Source: a virus
Direction: 5' to 3' (one strand)
Length of the DNA: 36,005 bases
Virus record (IMG/VR): IMGVR_UViG_3300017737_000029
Span: 1-36,005 of that record
Shown one piece after another: positions 5,100-33,557 of the stretch. How positions within the stretch are numbered: position 1 is the first letter of the stretch; every line of letters starts with the position of its first letter. The notes below the pieces were generated by a model. The model had not been told where the DNA came from, did not search any database, and saw nothing but the letters and a program-made list of their open reading frames with translations. The translations under genes and the position numbers were made by a program.

Positions 5100-5259
5100 G
5101 GACATTACTATCACACTCAGCAAGGACTTACAAGAAGAATTTGAGTCCTATCTTGACTGCTGTGACTCCCTGGACTTTGCTCCAAGGATCAATGCATTCC
5201 TAAATTATATTCACAACTACGGTACATGCAAGAATCCAAGGGAGCCAAAATGGGACTGA
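5092..5259 (+). CDS. Small conserved protein between nrdA and nrdB (55 aa)
   Basis: The start (ATGTCTAA) lies inside the last codons of nrdA and the stop lies inside the first codons of nrdB (ATGGGACTGA), so the three genes are interlocked. The protein has a hydrophilic strand (KDITITLSKDLQEEFESYL), an SLDFAPRINAF segment and a Lys/Pro-rich end. The ITITLSKDLQEE opening looks like a small ribbon- or helix-type fold, but I cannot name a family. Conserved position between RNR subunits is the main hint to its role. Confidence 0.6.
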   Translation: MSKDITITLSKDLQEEFESYLDCCDSLDFAPRINAFLNYIHNYGTCKNPREPKWD

Positions 5260-12275: not shown

Positions 12276-13745
12276 ATGCGTATTGTGATTGTCGGTGGTG
12301 GTACATCTGGTTGGATGACTGCCGCCGCTTTTTGTAAAACTTTCCCTAACTGGGACATCACTATGATCAATGGTGGTGATGCCATCGGTGTAGGTGAAAG
12401 CACTACGCCACACATCAATCAGTATCTTGATTACATGGGGATCACTGATGAAGTATTCCTCCCTGCAGCACGAGCAACATTCAAATCCTCTTCAAGGTTT
12501 GATGGTTTCGTGAAGGAGGGTGAAGTATTTCACTATCCCAATGGACAGTCAGTCGCAAAACATATAAAATTTCAAGAGTGGATGCTCGCCAAAGCATTTC
12601 ATCCAGAGAATCTACCACCCTTCTCCCAAGTATTCATGCCATTCACGGCGGTGGCAGAGGCAGGGCGACTACCACTGAATAAAAATATCCTAGGACCATA
12701 TGACCTCGCTAAAGACAGATCATTCCATATTAACGGAGCAGCCTTCTCCAACTTTCTCAGAGACACCTTCTGCAAAGATCTTAAGGTGGTTAATAGCACA
12801 GTTAAGTCTGTTGCTACTAAAGGAAGGAACATCGAGCACGTCGTGGTCACAGGTGGACCATACAAACTCGGGGGAGAAAAGATTTTTGGTGATCTCTTTA
12901 TCGACTGTAGTGGGCAGCAAGCAGTTGTCGGGGGGGCGCTTAGCAAGTGGAAACCCTACGATTCAATTGTAACTGACAGCGCACTCGTAGTTAAGACTGA
13001 CTACACTGATCGTGAGACCGAGATGGTCCCCTACACCAACGCTAAAGCAATGACTGCTGGTTGGCAGTGGACCATCCCTACCTATGACTTCCTCAGCAGG
13101 GGATATGTATTCTGCTCAAAGTTTCAGAGCGAAGAGGATGCCCGTAAAGAATTCGGATACGATGATGCACGTCTGATCAAGTTTGAAAACGGCAGGCATG
13201 AGAGAGCATGGACAGGTAACTGTGTGTCCATCGGACTCTCGTTTGGATTCATTGAGCCGTTAGAATCTACAAGTCTCTTCAACACACACCATGGCATCCT
13301 TGCTCTCATGGACCTCCTACAGGAGGCACCTCTGCCTGGACAATTCCAGCGTGATCGCTTCAACCATAACCTCACTGAGCATATGGACGGATGGCGTGAG
13401 TTTGTAGAGGCACACTACTATTACAGTCGCCGTCGTGACACACCTTTCTGGAGTCATGTCAGCGATGAGATAGAGTATGATCTCACAGGAACCCATGAAG
13501 CCATTCAGTATATTATGAATGGCAACGAAGCCATTTCCCATGGTGGCACACAGGTCCTTCACATCCTTGCAGGATCAGGTTATACTACAGTCAACAAGCG
13601 ACTCACTGAATACTTCAAGTATCCAGAGCTTGTTACTCGTCGCAAAGTCGATGACTGGGCATATGAGCACCAACTTGTGCTACAATATGCCAAGACATGT
13701 CCTCCTATGTCGGTTTTCTTGGAGTCCACCTTCGATTACACTTGA
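12276..13745 (+). CDS. Flavin-dependent (tryptophan-type) halogenase (489 aa)
   Basis: The enzyme family uses FADH2, O2 and halide to halogenate aromatic substrates. The N-terminal FAD site is IVGGGTSGWM. The catalytic Lys that forms the haloamine or hypohalous-acid contact is in ATFKSSSRFDGF (~residue 68). The signature GWQWTIP, which separates halogenases from monooxygenases, is at ~residue 267, and the conserved active-site Glu lies in GFIEPLESTSLF (~330). All key residues are present at nearly full family length, so it looks active. A viral halogenase of this family from cyanophage Syn10 (VirX1) has been shown to iodinate many compounds. The substrate in infection is unknown. The stop TGA lies within the -35 box of the psbA promoter. 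Confidence 0.92.
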   Translation: MRIVIVGGGTSGWMTAAAFCKTFPNWDITMINGGDAIGVGESTTPHINQYLDYMGITDEVFLPAARATFKSSSRFDGFVKEGEVFHYPNGQSVAKHIKFQEWMLAKAFHPENLPPFSQVFMPFTAVAEAGRLPLNKNILGPYDLAKDRSFHINGAAFSNFLRDTFCKDLKVVNSTVKSVATKGRNIEHVVVTGGPYKLGGEKIFGDLFIDCSGQQAVVGGALSKWKPYDSIVTDSALVVKTDYTDRETEMVPYTNAKAMTAGWQWTIPTYDFLSRGYVFCSKFQSEEDARKEFGYDDARLIKFENGRHERAWTGNCVSIGLSFGFIEPLESTSLFNTHHGILALMDLLQEAPLPGQFQRDRFNHNLTEHMDGWREFVEAHYYYSRRRDTPFWSHVSDEIEYDLTGTHEAIQYIMNGNEAISHGGTQVLHILAGSGYTTVNKRLTEYFKYPELVTRRKVDDWAYEHQLVLQYAKTCPPMSVFLESTFDYT

Positions 13746-13916: not shown

Positions 13917-14996
13917 ATGTCAACTCTTTCAAGGCAACAACAAACAACCTCCGCGTGGGATTCGTTCTGCGAGTGGGTAACTTCCACAAACAACCGACTC
14001 TATGTCGGATGGTTTGGAGTGCTGATGATCCCAACTCTGTTGGCGGCAACCATCTGCTTCGTGATCGCTTTCGTAGCGGCACCACCCGTCGATATCGACG
14101 GTATCCGTGAGCCCGTAGCAGGTTCACTCATGTATGGTAACAACATCATTTCTGGTGCTGTTGTCCCATCCTCCAACGCAATTGGTCTTCACTTCTACCC
14201 CATCTGGGAAGCCGCATCACTCGACGAGTGGTTGTATAACGGCGGTCCTTTCCAATTGGTAATCTTCCACTTCCTGATCGGCATCTTTGCCTATATGGGA
14301 CGTGAATGGGAATTGTCTTACCGTCTTGGGATGCGTCCTTGGATCTGTGTTGCATACTCTGCACCTGTTGCAGCAGCATCCGCAGTCTTCCTGGTCTATC
14401 CTTTCGGTCAAGGTTCTTTCTCTGACGCAATGCCTCTTGGTATCTCTGGCACATTCAACTACATGCTTGTCTTCCAAGCAGAGCACAACATCCTTATGCA
14501 CCCCTTCCACATGTTGGGAGTAGCAGGTGTCTTCGGTGGATCACTCTTCTCGGCAATGCATGGTAGTCTTGTTACTTCTTCACTCGTCCGTGAGACGACT
14601 GAATCTGAGTCACAAAACTATGGTTACAAGTTTGGACAAGAGGAAGAGACTTACAACATCGTCGCCGCTCATGGTTACTTTGGTCGTTTGATCTTCCAAT
14701 ACGCTTCCTTCAACAACAGCAGAAGTCTTCACTTCTTCCTTGCCGCATGGCCTGTTGTCGGAATCTGGTTTACTGCACTGGGCGTAAGCACCATGGCATT
14801 CAACCTCAACGGTTTCAACTTCAACCAGTCCATCTTGGACAACAATGGTCGTGTCCTCCCTACCTGGGCAGACGTGCTTAACCGCGCTGGTCTTGGTATG
14901 GAAGTCATGCACGAGCGTAACGCTCACAACTTCCCACTCGATCTGGCTGCTGCCGAGTCCACACCTGTGGCACTTACCGCACCTAGCATCGGTTGA
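13917..14996 (+). CDS. psbA: Photosystem II D1 protein (359 aa)
   Basis: D1 is the reaction-centre subunit that turns over fastest in light; phage copies keep photosystem II working during infection. All functional residues are in place: Tyr161 (YZ), the Mn/Ca ligands Asp170, Glu189, His332, Glu333, His337, Asp342 and Ala344, the chlorophyll ligand His198, the iron ligands His215 and His272, and Ser264 at the QB site. Residue 130 is Glu (GREWELSY), the high-light D1 form. The C terminus after Ala344 ([15 protein letters not shown]) is the processed extension. The gene is uninterrupted, with no intron. It is followed by a terminator and then psbD. Confidence 0.99.
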
Positions 14997-15298: not shown

Positions 15299-16354
15299 AT
15301 GACGACTGCTACACTACAACAACAACGGAGGGGTTGGTTTGATATCCTTGATGACTGGCTTAAACGGGATCGCTTTGTCTTTGTGGGTTGGTCTGGAATA
15401 CTTCTTCTTCCCACTGCTTATCTTGCCATTGGTGGTTGGCTTACTGGCACAACTTTTGTCACGAGTTGGTACACCCACGGACTTGCTACTTCCTATCTTG
15501 AGGGTGCTAATTTTCTTACGTCAGCTGTCTCAACGCCTGCTGACGCTATGGGTCATTCTCTTCTTCTACTTTGGGGTCCTGAAGCTCAGGGGGATTTCGT
15601 CCGCTGGTGCCAACTTGGGGGACTCTGGGCTTTCGTGGCTCTCCACGGTGCCTTCGCTCTCATTGGTTTCATGCTTCGACAGTTTGAGATCGCTCGTCTA
15701 GTTGGTATCCGTCCCTACAATGCTATTGCGTTCTCTGGTCCTATTGCTGTCTTTGTCAGCGTATTCCTTCTGTATCCACTGGGTCAGTCTTCATGGTTCT
15801 TTGCACCTAGTTTCGGGGTAGCAGCAATCTTTAGATTCCTACTCTTCCTTCAAGGTTTCCACAACTGGACCCTCAACCCCTTCCATATGATGGGTGTTGC
15901 TGGTATACTGGGTGGAGCATTGCTATGTGCAATCCATGGTGCTACTGTAGAAAACACGCTGTTTGAAGATGGTGAGCAAGCGAATACTTTCAAGGCTTTT
16001 GAGCCTACGCAAGAGGAGGAAACTTACTCGATGGTTACTGCGAACCGTTTCTGGTCACAGATCTTCGGTATTGCTTTTAGTAACAAGCGTTGGTTGCATT
16101 TCTTTATGCTATTCGTGCCCGTCATGGGTCTCTGGACTTCTTCTATCGGTATTGTTGGACTCGCTCTTAATCTTCGTGCTTACGACTTCGTATCTCAGGA
16201 GATTCGTGCAGCGGAGGATCCTGAATTCGAGACCTTCTACACCAAGAATATCCTCCTGAATGAAGGACTCCGTGCTTGGATGGCACCTGCTGACCAACCA
16301 CATGAAAACTTCATCTTCCCTGAGGAAGTACTACCAAGAGGTAATGCACTGTGA
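15299..16354 (+). CDS. psbD: Photosystem II D2 protein (351 aa)
   Basis: D2 pairs with D1 to form the photosystem II reaction centre. The sequence matches cyanobacterial D2 over its full length (family 351-352 aa): the N-terminal [20 protein letters not shown], the tyrosine-D region ([12 protein letters not shown]), the chlorophyll-ligand helix [14 protein letters not shown], the iron-ligand [16 protein letters not shown], and [12 protein letters not shown]. The C terminus is [11 protein letters not shown]. Codon choice differs little from neighbouring genes. It ends with GTGA, which overlaps the start of the next gene. Confidence 0.99.
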
Positions 16355-22091: not shown

Positions 22092-22118
22092 CATTTGGAG
22101 ATTAAACTGCTATAAATA
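22088..22118 (+). promoter_or_regulatory. Hybrid early/late promoter of the beta-barrel gene
   Basis: TTGACA (22088-22093), a 17-base spacer, then TATAAATA (22111-22118), which is at once a -10 hexamer (TATAAA) and the complete T4 late box. The start would be near 22123, at the base of a strong 5' stem-loop. Confidence 0.8.
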
Positions 22119-22234: not shown

Positions 22235-22612
22235 ATGATCAAAACTGCAATCGCAACTCTCGCCGCCACTGCCGCAATTGTGGCTCCGTCTGCTGCCCTC
22301 GCAGGTCCCTACGTTAACGTAGAAACCAATGCTGGTTGGACTGGCGCAGATTATTCTGGTGCCGCGACGGATTTTCACGTAGGGTATGAAGGTGCTCTGG
22401 GCGAATCCGCTTCATACTATGTCCAGGGCGGCGCTACTTTGGTTTCTCCTGATGGCGCTGAGAATGACACGGTTCCTTCTGGTAAGGCAGGTGTCGGTGT
22501 TTCCCTGAGCGATGCTCTGGGTGCGTATGGTGAAGTCTCATTCGTGGGCAGTGGCGATGACAACATCGACCGTGGCTACGGTGGGAAACTGGGCGTCAAG
22601 TATTCTTTCTGA
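22235..22612 (+). CDS. Exported beta-barrel (porin-like) protein (125 aa)
   Basis: The N terminus is a clear signal peptide (TAIATLAATAAIVAPSAALA, cleavage before GPYVN). The mature ~100 residues alternate hydrophobic and polar positions with Gly turns (FHVGYEGALG, YYVQGGATLV, KAGVGVSLSD, YGEVSFVGS). They end in YGGKLGVKYSF, and the terminal Phe is the outer-membrane-protein signature. The protein is short for a complete barrel, so it may oligomerise. The gene is monocistronic, with an AAGAGGT Shine-Dalgarno, its own dual promoter and a strong terminator, which implies high expression. Insertion into the host outer membrane (exclusion or permeability) is inference; a virion role is the alternative. 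Confidence 0.75.
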   Translation: MIKTAIATLAATAAIVAPSAALAGPYVNVETNAGWTGADYSGAATDFHVGYEGALGESASYYVQGGATLVSPDGAENDTVPSGKAGVGVSLSDALGAYGEVSFVGSGDDNIDRGYGGKLGVKYSF

Positions 22613-26502: not shown

Positions 26503-27177
26503 ATGTCTTTTAATTATGTTGGTCCTGCTTCTCCTCTCACTGAGTTAGAGAGCAGGACTCTTCCTCACGGAAGGTTCTATAAGACCGATAGTGGTTGGAT
26601 GCCTAGCGTCACAACTGTTGTCGGTCATAATACTAAGGCGGGTATCCTTGCCTGGGAGAAGAGAGTAGGATACACTGAGGCAGAGCGTGTCCGCCGTGCT
26701 GCATCGTGGCGTGGCACCCAATACCATACCATCGTGGAGCACTATCTAAACAATGACTTGGAGAAAATTAAAGAAAGCAAAGGTCTTCCCAAGTACCTTT
26801 TCGGGTTTGCTCGTAAGGATCTTGATCGTATTTCTAACATTCATTGTATTGAAGCCCCTCTTCATTCTCTTAAGTTGGGTCTTGCTGGTAGGGTTGATTG
26901 TATTGCTGAGTTTGATAACTCTCTAGCAATCATTGACTTCAAGACCACAACTAGGATCAAGAAGGAGGAGTATCTTAAGTCATACTTTGTACAGGAAGCA
27001 GCATATGCTTACATGTATTACGAGATGACTGGTGTTGAGGTAGACAAACTTGTTACATTATCTGTGGCAGAGGATGGGCAGATGCAAATTGTAGAGAAGT
27101 ATGATAAGATACCTTATATGGATACCCTAATCAAATGGATCGAAGAGTATCGTTACTATGTCGAGGGACTTAAATGA
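26503..27177 (+). CDS. PD-(D/E)XK exonuclease, MGME1/RecB-like (224 aa)
   Basis: Likely a single-strand-specific exonuclease. The core reads LAGRVDCIAEFDNSLAIIDF followed by KTTTR, giving the Asp and D-x-K catalytic residues (~residues 126-147), and QEAAYAYMYYE (~165) supplies the Q-x-x-x-Y motif of RecB/Cas4-type nucleases. An N-terminal GTQYHTIVEHYL helix carries the family His. Homologues in T4-like cyanophages are often labelled MGME1-like. It starts right after the phoH stop, and its end overlaps gene 33. Confidence 0.82.
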   Translation: MSFNYVGPASPLTELESRTLPHGRFYKTDSGWMPSVTTVVGHNTKAGILAWEKRVGYTEAERVRRAASWRGTQYHTIVEHYLNNDLEKIKESKGLPKYLFGFARKDLDRISNIHCIEAPLHSLKLGLAGRVDCIAEFDNSLAIIDFKTTTRIKKEEYLKSYFVQEAAYAYMYYEMTGVEVDKLVTLSVAEDGQMQIVEKYDKIPYMDTLIKWIEEYRYYVEGLK

Positions 27178-27419
27178 AAGAGATTGAAGAAAAATTCATG
27201 ACTCAGGGTAAGTTTACCTCACTCGTAGAAATGCGAGTCAAAGACTCCCAAGGACTCATCAACTACATAGAAGCAGTTGCGTCTGTTTGTGAGGAGTTTG
27301 AGATTGAAGTTGAAACTGTCAGTAAACTGATCTCTAAACCACTCAAGGACAAAATCAAATGGGACGCCCAGCAATTAAATTACATTAAACGAACGAGCAA
27401 AGCGATCTTGCCCCTATGA
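27174..27419 (+). CDS. 33: Late-promoter transcription accessory protein, gp33-like (81 aa)
   Basis: T4 gp33 bridges RNA polymerase and the sliding clamp gp45 so that the gp55 sigma factor can use late promoters. The C-terminal part fits the conserved gp33 pattern: a helix with INYIEAVASVCEEFEIEVET, then LISKPLKDKIKWDAQQLNYI and a basic end. The protein is shorter than T4 gp33 (112 aa), as is usual in cyanophages. It is consistent with the many CTAAATA and TATAAATA late boxes in the window. The ATG overlaps the nuclease stop. Confidence 0.8.
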   Translation: MKEIEEKFMTQGKFTSLVEMRVKDSQGLINYIEAVASVCEEFEIEVETVSKLISKPLKDKIKWDAQQLNYIKRTSKAILPL

Positions 27420-30536: not shown

Positions 30537-30775
30537 TCCCTCAGACCGCTGTAATCTATTCAAATGGAAGTCAAGAATGTGAAAGGGCAGCACAACTGCT
30601 ACTATCACTAGATGGCGAATATCTCGAATATCGCCTAAATCAGCATTTTACGCAAAAATCGTTTGAAAACGAATTTGGTCAAAAAGCAGAATACCCACAA
30701 ATCGCACTTGGAGCGCAACATGTGGGTAATTTGAAAGATTTGCTACATGTAGCAAAAGAGAAAGGACTTATCTAA
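30533..30775 (+). CDS. Glutaredoxin-fold protein with degenerate active site (80 aa)
   Basis: The sequence aligns with the glutaredoxin at 22689 over its length: IYSNGSQECERAA replaces YTRPGCPFCTK, LNQHFTQKSFENEF parallels LNVNFTRDQFYKEF, EYPQIALG parallels TFPQVLIN, and HVGNLKDLL replaces the GGCTETVK glutathione motif. Only one active-site Cys remains, so it cannot work as a dithiol reductase. It may bind a partner or cofactor, or be a monothiol form. It is the last plus-strand gene before the minus-strand pair. Confidence 0.65.
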   Translation: MIPQTAVIYSNGSQECERAAQLLLSLDGEYLEYRLNQHFTQKSFENEFGQKAEYPQIALGAQHVGNLKDLLHVAKEKGLI

Positions 30776-31728
30776 TATCCACCACCACCGCTGTAGGACG
30801 ATCCTGAGGACTGTTGACCACTAGATGATCCAGCAGACCCATACTGATTAGTTTCAGTTGTATCCATTTGTCCTGCCTGCTCAATAGTTGCACTGCTAGT
30901 TCCTGTAGAGACGCTAACTGAAACAACGGTGCTACCATCAGCAAGTACATCACCTTCAGAGATAGTAGGATCGGAAGATCCGAAACTTCTGGAGGTGTAT
31001 TCTGCTGAAGAGGCAAATTGAATTGAAGGTATTTGTCCCACAAGAGTCTCATACGTGGGTTTGACATTGGTAAATGCCTCTGCAACAGCTGCTGCAGTCT
31101 TCTTAATACCTGTAGCAGGATCAACTTCATTAGAAGGAAGGTATTCAACCAATTTCTCAAATTCTTCAACAAATGCATCGATATATTGAGGTTTGAGTAG
31201 GTGTATACCTCTCTTATAGTCATTTAATGCCAATTCATAGTCATAGTTGGACACAGGTCTAACTAACTCTTCTTTGGGGATAAGTGTGCCATCAGGACGT
31301 GAGTATTCAAAGTCTTGAGCAACCTCAAATCCATCTCTAAGGATTACATCACCCCTTGTGCTTTTAATCTCTTGTGTTACCCAGTGGTGAATGCTTTCTA
31401 CGTGTTTCGCACCGTATTTACGAACCATATATGCATACATCTCCTGCTCAGTCATAGGCCATTCATCATATACGTTGATGATGTTATTAGTGAGTAGCAC
31501 GACCCAATCATATTCAACGTTACCATATACCCTATCAGCAATCTGATCGGGTCTTTCGTTGTGTTGAATGATGTATTTTTCAAATCCAAGAATGATATCA
31601 CTTATATCATCTCGTATCTTAATACGACGGAATAGATTTTTTGCCTGGACGTAAGGATCATTATTACCTGTGCGATAACTAGATGTCCTTACGAATACGT
31701 CAGGTAAGTATGAGAAGTAATTTGACAT
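30772..31728 (-). CDS. 53: Baseplate wedge protein gp53 (318 aa)
   Basis: gp53 is a wedge component of the T4-type baseplate. The diagnostic N-terminal region is VKIRDDIS-type helix (RRIKIRDDISDIILGF), then the LysM-like block RPDQIADRVYGNVEYDWVVL followed by LTNNIINVYDEWPMTEQEMY. The first ~200 residues match the family. The C-terminal ~100 residues are Ser/Thr/Gly-rich low complexity ending in a GSSYSGGGGY tail, and look disordered. The stop (TAG on the minus strand) interlocks with the TAA of the upstream plus-strand gene. Its start overlaps the gp48 stop by one base. Confidence 0.88.
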   Translation of the reverse strand: MSNYFSYLPDVFVRTSSYRTGNNDPYVQAKNLFRRIKIRDDISDIILGFEKYIIQHNERPDQIADRVYGNVEYDWVVLLTNNIINVYDEWPMTEQEMYAYMVRKYGAKHVESIHHWVTQEIKSTRGDVILRDGFEVAQDFEYSRPDGTLIPKEELVRPVSNYDYELALNDYKRGIHLLKPQYIDAFVEEFEKLVEYLPSNEVDPATGIKKTAAAVAEAFTNVKPTYETLVGQIPSIQFASSAEYTSRSFGSSDPTISEGDVLADGSTVVSVSVSTGTSSATIEQAGQMDTTETNQYGSAGSSSGQQSSGSSYSGGGGY

Positions 31729-32657
31729 TATTCGTCCTTGAAGTCCTCGCGAGTACGGTATTTGGTCTCTTGGAAAGTGAGAGACATGTTATAGACGGCA
31801 AAACCGAAGTCTTTATTTTCCAGTCCAGGCGTATGGGTGCGAATTGCAGTTGAATCGCCAAAGTCAACGCTCATGTCCTGTAACACCATTTTGTGAGGAA
31901 AGCGTAGTAGGGCATTCATATACCCACCTGACCTTTTTCCTTTACCTAGTTTTTCATCGTCACCACTTGATTCATACCTAACAATCTCTGCCTTGAACTT
32001 GTCAGGGATGAGCAACCAGTCGTTTCCTTCTTTCGCTGGGTGCATAGATTGTCTAAGACAACTAATGATCTCATAGATCGTCTGCACATCTGCAGCACTC
32101 TTAGGCACGAAACTAAACTTAAAACTATGAGAGATAAATCCGACACCTTTGAAGAGCATCTCTTCATAAGGGTTGAATACTTTACCTTGCGTTAGTTGGG
32201 AAAGATCGTTAGAATCAATGTTGAATCCATAAGGTGACACTTCACCCACCACCGTGTTGATTGCGGTAGCACCAATCTTAAATCCTAGAGCAGGTTTTGC
32301 TGCTTTTGCCGCCGCTGAAACATTGTCACCGATATTATCAAGAGATCCACCACTACCAACCACGTCAGCAGCAGCACCGATTACGGCATTACCAACTGCA
32401 CCAAGGTTCTTACCTTCATACTTAGCAGAATACCTCTCATTCAAACCAGGAGGGAGGTATAAGTAAAGTTGCTTATATCCTTCACCACTACCTTTATCAG
32501 ATCCTTGAGATCTCTTTTTGTGTTTATAAATATTTAACTTAAGGTAGTCTACAACTTCTGTAGGATACGAGGCTTTGTCTCTTACAGACGCCCTGCTACT
32601 ACTTGATGTGCCCATAGGTTTGACCCTAGGGAATACTAACAAATTTGACTTCGGCAT
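31728..32657 (-). CDS. 48: Baseplate tail-tube cap protein gp48 (309 aa)
   Basis: gp48 caps the baseplate hub and starts tail-tube polymerisation. The core is recognisable by NPYEEMLFKGVGFISHSFKF and then DVQTIYEIISCLRQSMHPA, with a C-terminal ALLRFPHKMVLQDMSVDFGD and MSLTFQETKYRTREDF. This is the tail-tube-like fold of gp48/gp54. The Gly/Ala-rich region at about residues 80-150 may be flexible. It is transcribed on the minus strand with gp53. Its ATG (CAT at 32655-32657) overlaps the ATG of gp4 on the other strand. Confidence 0.85.
   Translation of the reverse strand: MPKSNLLVFPRVKPMGTSSSSRASVRDKASYPTEVVDYLKLNIYKHKKRSQGSDKGSGEGYKQLYLYLPPGLNERYSAKYEGKNLGAVGNAVIGAAADVVGSGGSLDNIGDNVSAAAKAAKPALGFKIGATAINTVVGEVSPYGFNIDSNDLSQLTQGKVFNPYEEMLFKGVGFISHSFKFSFVPKSAADVQTIYEIISCLRQSMHPAKEGNDWLLIPDKFKAEIVRYESSGDDEKLGKGKRSGGYMNALLRFPHKMVLQDMSVDFGDSTAIRTHTPGLENKDFGFAVYNMSLTFQETKYRTREDFKDE
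32525..32532 (+). promoter_or_regulatory. Late promoter for gp4, located inside gp48
   Basis: TATAAATA (perfect T4 late box) on the plus strand, 124 bases before the gp4 ATG. The transcript would start near 32538, inside the N-terminal coding part of gp48. Confidence 0.7.
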
Positions 32658-33090
32658 GAGTTATTCTGGCAAATACAGACCATCAAATAGACATAAGTAT
32701 AAGGGTGATCCCACTAATATTATTTATAGGAGTTTGTGGGAAAGAAAGTTTATGGTCTGGTGCGACAAAAATGTAAATGTAATGGAGTGGGGAAGTGAAG
32801 AGATCGTTATTCCATACATCAGTCCTGTTGATGGTCGGATTCACCGCTATTTTCCCGACTTCTACGTCAGAGCACGAACTAGAAACGGAGGGACTCAGAA
32901 ATTCATTATCGAAGTTAAACCGAAAGTCCAGTGTGCGCCCCCGAAGAGACCGAAGAGGCAGACTAAAAGATATATAACTGAAGTGAAAACTTACGGTGTC
33001 AACCAAGCAAAATGGAAGGCAGCAAGAGAATACTGTAAGGATCGTCGTATGGAATTCCTAATTCTCACAGAAAAAGAGTTAAACGTATGA
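32656..33090 (+). CDS. 4: Head completion nuclease-fold protein gp4 (144 aa)
   Basis: gp4 (T4 gp50/gp4) is needed to finish DNA-filled heads so that tails can join. The sequence follows T4 gp4 closely: YSGKYRPSNRHKYKGDPTN, YRSLWERKFMVWCDKN, WGSEEIVIPYISP, HRYFPDFYVR and FIIEVKPK. The PDFYVR and IEVKPK elements are the Asp and E-x-K of a PD-(D/E)XK nuclease fold. The end has VNQAKWKAAREYCKDRRMEF. ATG 32656 matches the T4 start; a 27-residue upstream extension would read across the gp48 start and is rejected. Confidence 0.93.
   Translation: MSYSGKYRPSNRHKYKGDPTNIIYRSLWERKFMVWCDKNVNVMEWGSEEIVIPYISPVDGRIHRYFPDFYVRARTRNGGTQKFIIEVKPKVQCAPPKRPKRQTKRYITEVKTYGVNQAKWKAAREYCKDRRMEFLILTEKELNV
32721..32728 (-). 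promoter_or_regulatory. Late promoter for gp48-gp53, located inside gp4
   Basis: TATAAATA on the minus strand (TATTTATA on plus), 63 bases upstream of the gp48 ATG and within codons 22-25 of gp4. The transcript would start near 32715. Confidence 0.7.
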
Positions 33091-33557
33091 GCATCTTCAC
33101 TGATGTTAAGGATCTTGCAGAAGGCAAGTCACAATCTAAAGAGTGGTATCGCTCTCAACTGCAATATGGTATGGAACCCTATGAGGGCACCTTTGCAGTT
33201 GGTGACATCATCTTTTTTGCATATTCTGCATCAACTGAGAAATTGTCATTTTATGACAGATTCCCCATGGTGCAAATATCCGATCTGGATAAACGTAACA
33301 TGCAATTCTCAGGTGGTAACTTACATTATCTACAACCATCAGCAAGAAGGACAATCGCTGCACAGTGGTCTATGGGCAGTCCCGCATTTCCTGCCCGTTG
33401 CTATCATAAATACTTTATGTCAAATGCTACCAACATTTACACTGTTAAACCGATTGATCTGCAGGATATGACTCCATTGCCTATCGAGCAATTCTTATTT
33501 AATGCAGCAGGTCGCTGGATCGAAGTCCCTAGCAGTCACATCTGGAGTCGAGTTTAA
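33087..33557 (+). CDS. Conserved T4-like neck/baseplate-region protein (156 aa)
   Basis: Starts in an ATGA overlap with gp4 and ends in a TAATG overlap with the next gene. It has KEWYRSQLQYGMEPYEG, VGDIIFFAYSA, FYDRFPMVQISDL and NLHYLQPSARR segments, a pattern that recurs next to gp2/gp4 in many T4-like marine phages, where it is left as unknown or called DNA-end-protector-like. It is small for gp2. A virion or assembly role is inferred from its position. Confidence 0.6.
   Translation: MSIFTDVKDLAEGKSQSKEWYRSQLQYGMEPYEGTFAVGDIIFFAYSASTEKLSFYDRFPMVQISDLDKRNMQFSGGNLHYLQPSARRTIAAQWSMGSPAFPARCYHKYFMSNATNIYTVKPIDLQDMTPLPIEQFLFNAAGRWIEVPSSHIWSRV

Follow-up and report, generated by a model that had tools for sequence, protein, structure and literature searches.

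Two T4-type late promoters very probably face each other across the divergent junction of gp4 and gp48, and the antisense overlap of their RNAs would be mainly a by-product of compaction that the phage tolerates. Comparison of sequences across relatives showed that selection holds the boxes as DNA signals, over and above the protein code. From these patterns we infer that the promoters are used in vivo, where their start sites lie, and that the overlap is mainly tolerated through compaction, with at most modest interference.

Layout of the gp4-gp48 junction

The window, meaning the whole stretch of DNA analysed (36,005 nucleotides), is a 36-kb virus record that was taken as a fragment of a T4-like cyanophage because it encodes photosystem genes, phoH and T4-type genes. 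A gp33-like late-transcription co-activator is present in the window (Table 1), and gp33 is also encoded in six relatives. The late-transcription factors gp33, gp55 and gp45 have been reported for all cyanomyoviruses, and for S-PM2 and Syn9 the late box has been published as NATAAATA (PMC2984593). Among the photosystem genes, two adjacent genes (13917-14996 and 15299-16354) both match phrog_182 (photosystem II D1), the second of which may be psbD or a second psbA. A tryptophan halogenase-like gene of 489 aa lies beside them (12276-13745; phrog_2928).

The ATGs of gp4 on the plus strand and gp48 on the minus strand share the four bases CATG. The first-pass annotation had placed an exact TATAAATA box inside each gene, directed at the other; the coordinates of both boxes and of the shared CATG proved exact, and the names gp4 and gp48 agree with the phrog matches in Table 1. 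An AT-rich segment lies directly 3' of each box, TTTAACTTAA on the plus strand and ATATTAGTGG on the minus strand. Downstream of gp4, between it and the tail tube gene, the window carries a gp2-like DNA end protector gene (33087-33557), as does S-SZBM1; Syn9 has no gp2-like gene at that place, and its next gene begins directly after gp4.

Table 1. Positions of the features discussed, numbered from the first base of the window.
Feature	Position	Strand	Evidence
gp33-like late-transcription co-activator	27177-27416	+	60% identity to Syn9 gp33, E 7.8e-29
gp53, baseplate wedge	30772-31728	-	phrog_232 E 1.1e-82; Pfam Phage_gp53 2.6e-11
gp48, baseplate tail tube cap, 309 aa	31728-32657	-	phrog_230 E 1.9e-57
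gp4 late promoter box TATAAATA (putative), = gp48 Asn-Ile-Tyr-Lys (aaT ATT TAT Aaa)	32525-32532	+	exact; relatives
Predicted mutual antisense 5' overlap, 178 nt	32538-32715	both	from T4 box-to-start spacing
CATG, overlapping divergent start codons of gp4/gp48	32655-32658	both	sequence; same layout in 79 unique loci
gp4, head closure/completion protein, 144 aa	32656-33090	+	phrog_218 E 4.6e-65; Pfam Tn7_TnsA-like_N 5.5e-23
gp48-gp53 late promoter box TATAAATA (putative), = gp4 codons 22-25 (ATT ATT TAT Agg)	32721-32728	-	exact; relatives

In the proposed arrangement, late promoters of the gp55/gp33/clamp type would face each other at a head/baseplate gene junction devoid of intergenic DNA. The gp48-gp53 box lies antisense to gp4 codons 22-25, and the gp4 box antisense to an Ile-Tyr codon pair within gp48. 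Under T4 spacing, which puts the box at -13 to -6, a transcript begun by late RNA polymerase at 32538(+) would be a gp4 mRNA with a leader of ~118 nt (32538-32655), and one begun at 32715(-) would be a gp48-gp53 mRNA with a leader of ~58 nt (32658-32715). The gp4 and gp48-gp53 RNAs would then be antisense to each other over ~178 nt. Transcription of gp53, which lies downstream of gp48, is presumed to follow as the second gene of the gp48 transcript.

The window held three exact copies of TATAAATA against 0.86 expected, and at least that many occurred in 7 of 100 shuffles. When synonymous codons were shuffled with both peptides held, a box arose in the first 262 nt of gp48 with P = 0.32 and in the first 112 nt of gp4 with P = 0.147. 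Given the peptides, the window's own boxes are thus compatible with chance, and as a single genome it is suggestive but short of proof. The third exact copy is at 22111-22118, ~117 nt upstream of a conserved phrog_417 gene (22235-22612).

Conservation of the boxes in relatives

Since chance was not excluded from the window alone, the junction was compared with that of its relatives. From viral contigs and isolates, 296 distinct gp4 loci were collected, of which 195 had gp48 divergent, 74 had it collinear and 27 were unassigned. The overlapping-start (CATG) class comprised 79 divergent loci, this window and the isolates S-SZBM1, S-WAM1, P-RSM6 and P-TIM40 included, which formed 21 clusters at 90% identity; clusters share ancestry, and gp48 starts are uncertain in some relatives. 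A phylogenetic sign test was uninformative, as the gp4 tree held only ~3 independent transitions on well-supported branches, too few for such a test.

The minus-strand box for gp48, at gp4 +65 and spelled ATT ATT TAT, was found in all 79 overlapping-start loci and all 21 clusters. A check of relatives for retention of the boxes despite coding constraint had been proposed from the window alone, and the gp48 box came through it in every locus of this class. When only clusters with a compatible peptide were counted, the box stood at those gp4 codons in 5 of 19 collinear clusters (Fisher P ~5e-7) and in 11 of 31 clusters in which the box has moved to gp4's ATG (Fisher P ~9e-7). Among the first 60 codons of gp4, no three consecutive codons other than 22-24 were all fully frozen, and these were so in the overlapping-start class only; synonymous conservation was also raised at codons 25-27 and 29-30. 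Pure peptide conservation as the cause was ruled out by the synonymous test together with the class comparison. On the tree, a gp48 box was present in 80 of 80 divergent clusters: all 33 without a box in -30..0 had one at +65, and the remaining 47 had one in -30..0. The sequence CATAAATA, with its box at -5, also lies over gp4's ATG in many collinear-class loci.

Conservation also reached upstream of the gp48 box, over window positions 32728-32745 (gp4 codons 25-30, AGG AGT TTG TGG GAA AGA). T4 late promoters have no upstream element, and an extended late promoter in the overlapping-start lineage is possible.

For gp4, ATAAATA was found within 260 nt upstream, inside gp48, in 16 of the 21 overlapping-start clusters, against 5.2 clusters expected and a maximum of 11 under codon shuffling. 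The same search in three control windows gave 0 of 21 clusters in each. This box too is retained in most clusters of the class, though its site varied. Aligned to gp48, the box occupied three different sites: an N-terminal Leu-Ile-Tyr, the X-Ile-Tyr that follows Asp-Tyr-Leu-Lys (this window), and an X-Ile-Tyr-Leu-Tyr-Leu-Pro stretch. Its presence is, on this alignment, kept while its place shifts. Most of the nearest relatives use the site found in this window, and among 19 close relatives the X-Ile-Tyr codons there are nearly frozen. In the other five clusters the exact gp4 box was not found within 400 nt; three of them carry Phe rather than Tyr at both the second and the third site, and gp4 may have another promoter there. 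In the other classes, CTAAATA stands close upstream of gp4 in 33 of 38 and 24 of 25 clusters.

Whole genomes were strongly biased in the strand that carries the box. Across six large genomes or contigs ATAAATA occurred 217 times on one strand and 16 times on the other (S-SZBM1 30:3, P-TIM40 36:2, S-WAM1 41:5, P-RSM6 38:3, a 187-kb contig 35:2 and Syn9 37:1). Ranked by strand bias, it took first place of 4,604 heptamers in Syn9 and seventh place of 5,571 in P-TIM40; among AT-only heptamers it led in both. CTAAATA was also strand-biased in whole genomes (23:2, 30:3 and 23:1), unlike its reversed control. In all six genomes or contigs the gp48 box was among the rare opposite-strand copies of ATAAATA, and in Syn9 it was the only one. 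This bias is consistent with a promoter that acts in one direction and is avoided on the wrong strand, with the exception serving the flipped gp48-gp53 unit. In Syn9 and P-TIM40, roughly one third to one half of the leading-strand boxes lay inside ORFs.

Convergence, overlap and alternative explanations

Every one of the 90 clusters with both boxes had them convergent, a count set partly by the ranges searched and by the short intergenic space. The predicted antisense overlap ran from ~1 to 306 nt across relatives, being 127-304 nt in the overlapping-start class and 6 nt in most Syn9-type clusters. A universal or fixed-length overlap was ruled out by this range, and a fixed antisense duplex is therefore not conserved. 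In a simple and crude collision model with polymerase size and speed as in PMC6593788, 178 bp between the promoters gave a symmetric loss of ~5% when the promoters fired at 0.01/s and of about one third at 0.05/s.

The Syn9 type (Syn9 5147-5181 and other loci) carries a compact intergenic pair in which ~16 bp separate CTAAATA from TATTTATG; the right half of TATTTATG overlaps gp4's ATG. Most clusters, from several genera, share this spacing, and a similar box pair also occurs where another gene is divergent.

The first-pass annotation had interpreted the embedded boxes as a possible means of balancing head and baseplate proteins by RNA pairing or polymerase collision. The facing boxes themselves were kept in relatives and behave like late promoters set within the opposite gene, but the balancing part found no support: the overlap varies over the range given above, five of the 21 clusters have no exact gp4 box within 400 nt, and the modelled loss at 0.01/s is small. 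That the antisense overlap balances head and baseplate output is possible, if less likely than plain compaction. We weighed the proposal that pairing and/or collision of the late RNAs has itself been selected to balance gp4 against gp48/gp53 levels. The convergent geometry in all 90 clusters speaks for it, as do the long overlap in the overlapping-start class, the loss of a third of output on both sides at 0.05/s, and known interference between convergent phage promoters (PMC6593788); yet a lack of intergenic room would by itself produce such a geometry, the overlap shrinks to 6 nt in most Syn9-type clusters, a clear gp4 box is absent from 5 of 21 clusters, and little interference is predicted at low firing rates, so that we regard such selection as rather unlikely. 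The wider form of this idea is rather unlikely too, namely that the convergent pair is a conserved regulatory element through which gp4 and gp48-gp53 output are coupled by antisense leaders and polymerase collisions, with the facing arrangement kept by selection in T4-like cyanophages whether compact (~32 bp intergenic, Syn9 type) or spread into both genes. On the preferred reading, in which two late promoters are selected and their overlap is tolerated, they would be convergent largely through the absence of intergenic room.

It is also improbable that only the gp48 box is real, with gp4 transcribed here mainly from elsewhere, by read-through or from another promoter, and the box inside gp48 incidental. 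The shifting place of the gp4 box, its absence from five clusters and the P of 0.32 in the window alone would suit this explanation, but it does not account for the excess over the shuffle expectation and the empty control windows, for the near-frozen X-Ile-Tyr codons of the close relatives, or for the CTAAATA found close upstream of gp4 in the classes that have no box inside gp48. Codon coincidence, in which conserved Ile-Ile-Tyr and Ile-Tyr peptides encoded by AT-rich genes would have produced both boxes incidentally and neither would be a promoter, agrees with the two P values obtained from the window but is very hard to credit against a synonymous freeze confined to where the box is needed, the codon-shuffle excess in relatives, and a genome-wide strand bias to which the gp48 box is the exception.

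Comparison with known systems

In this arrangement protein code and promoter would be superimposed on each other, both ways, at a single phage gene junction, and the synonymous sites give evidence of selection on the DNA signal. Promoter surveys restricted to intergenic DNA would overlook genuine late promoters of these marine viruses, which are very common. If the overlap does regulate, it would provide a simple, built-in tie between head and baseplate production.

With T4-type late promoters (gp55/gp33/gp45; cyanophage form NATAAATA) the junction has in common the 8-bp box, the AT-rich stretch downstream, the structural genes served and gp33 nearby; it differs in that each box is embedded in the neighbouring gene of the opposite strand. 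A survey of 16 cyanophages kept only boxes that were intergenic or no farther than 10 bp from the upstream gene (PMC3037559), and reciprocal gene-internal boxes were thereby excluded from it. A literature search, whose coverage did not extend to the Syn9 transcriptome study, found no report of such reciprocal overlapping late promoters.

Both phage promoters that converge and divergent genes whose leaders overlap have precedents. Lambda PR-PRE and 186 pR-pE likewise face each other over a few hundred bp and give overlapping RNAs, which are here predicted from box positions. Those pairs set the lysis/lysogeny decision and their promoters are differently regulated, whereas here the two promoters would belong to one late class and drive a pair of virion genes, each of them required. 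With excludons and other divergent overlapping leaders the junction would share antisense 5' ends (178 nt, predicted from the sequence); excludons are defined by opposite expression of their two sides, whereas co-expression is expected here, both being virion genes with late boxes. CfrI of cyanophage S-PM2 is another case of antisense transcription in a T4-like cyanophage (PMC2984593), as predicted here, but it is an antisense RNA of ~225 nt over psbA and a homing endonuclease gene rather than a pairing of two virion mRNA leaders.
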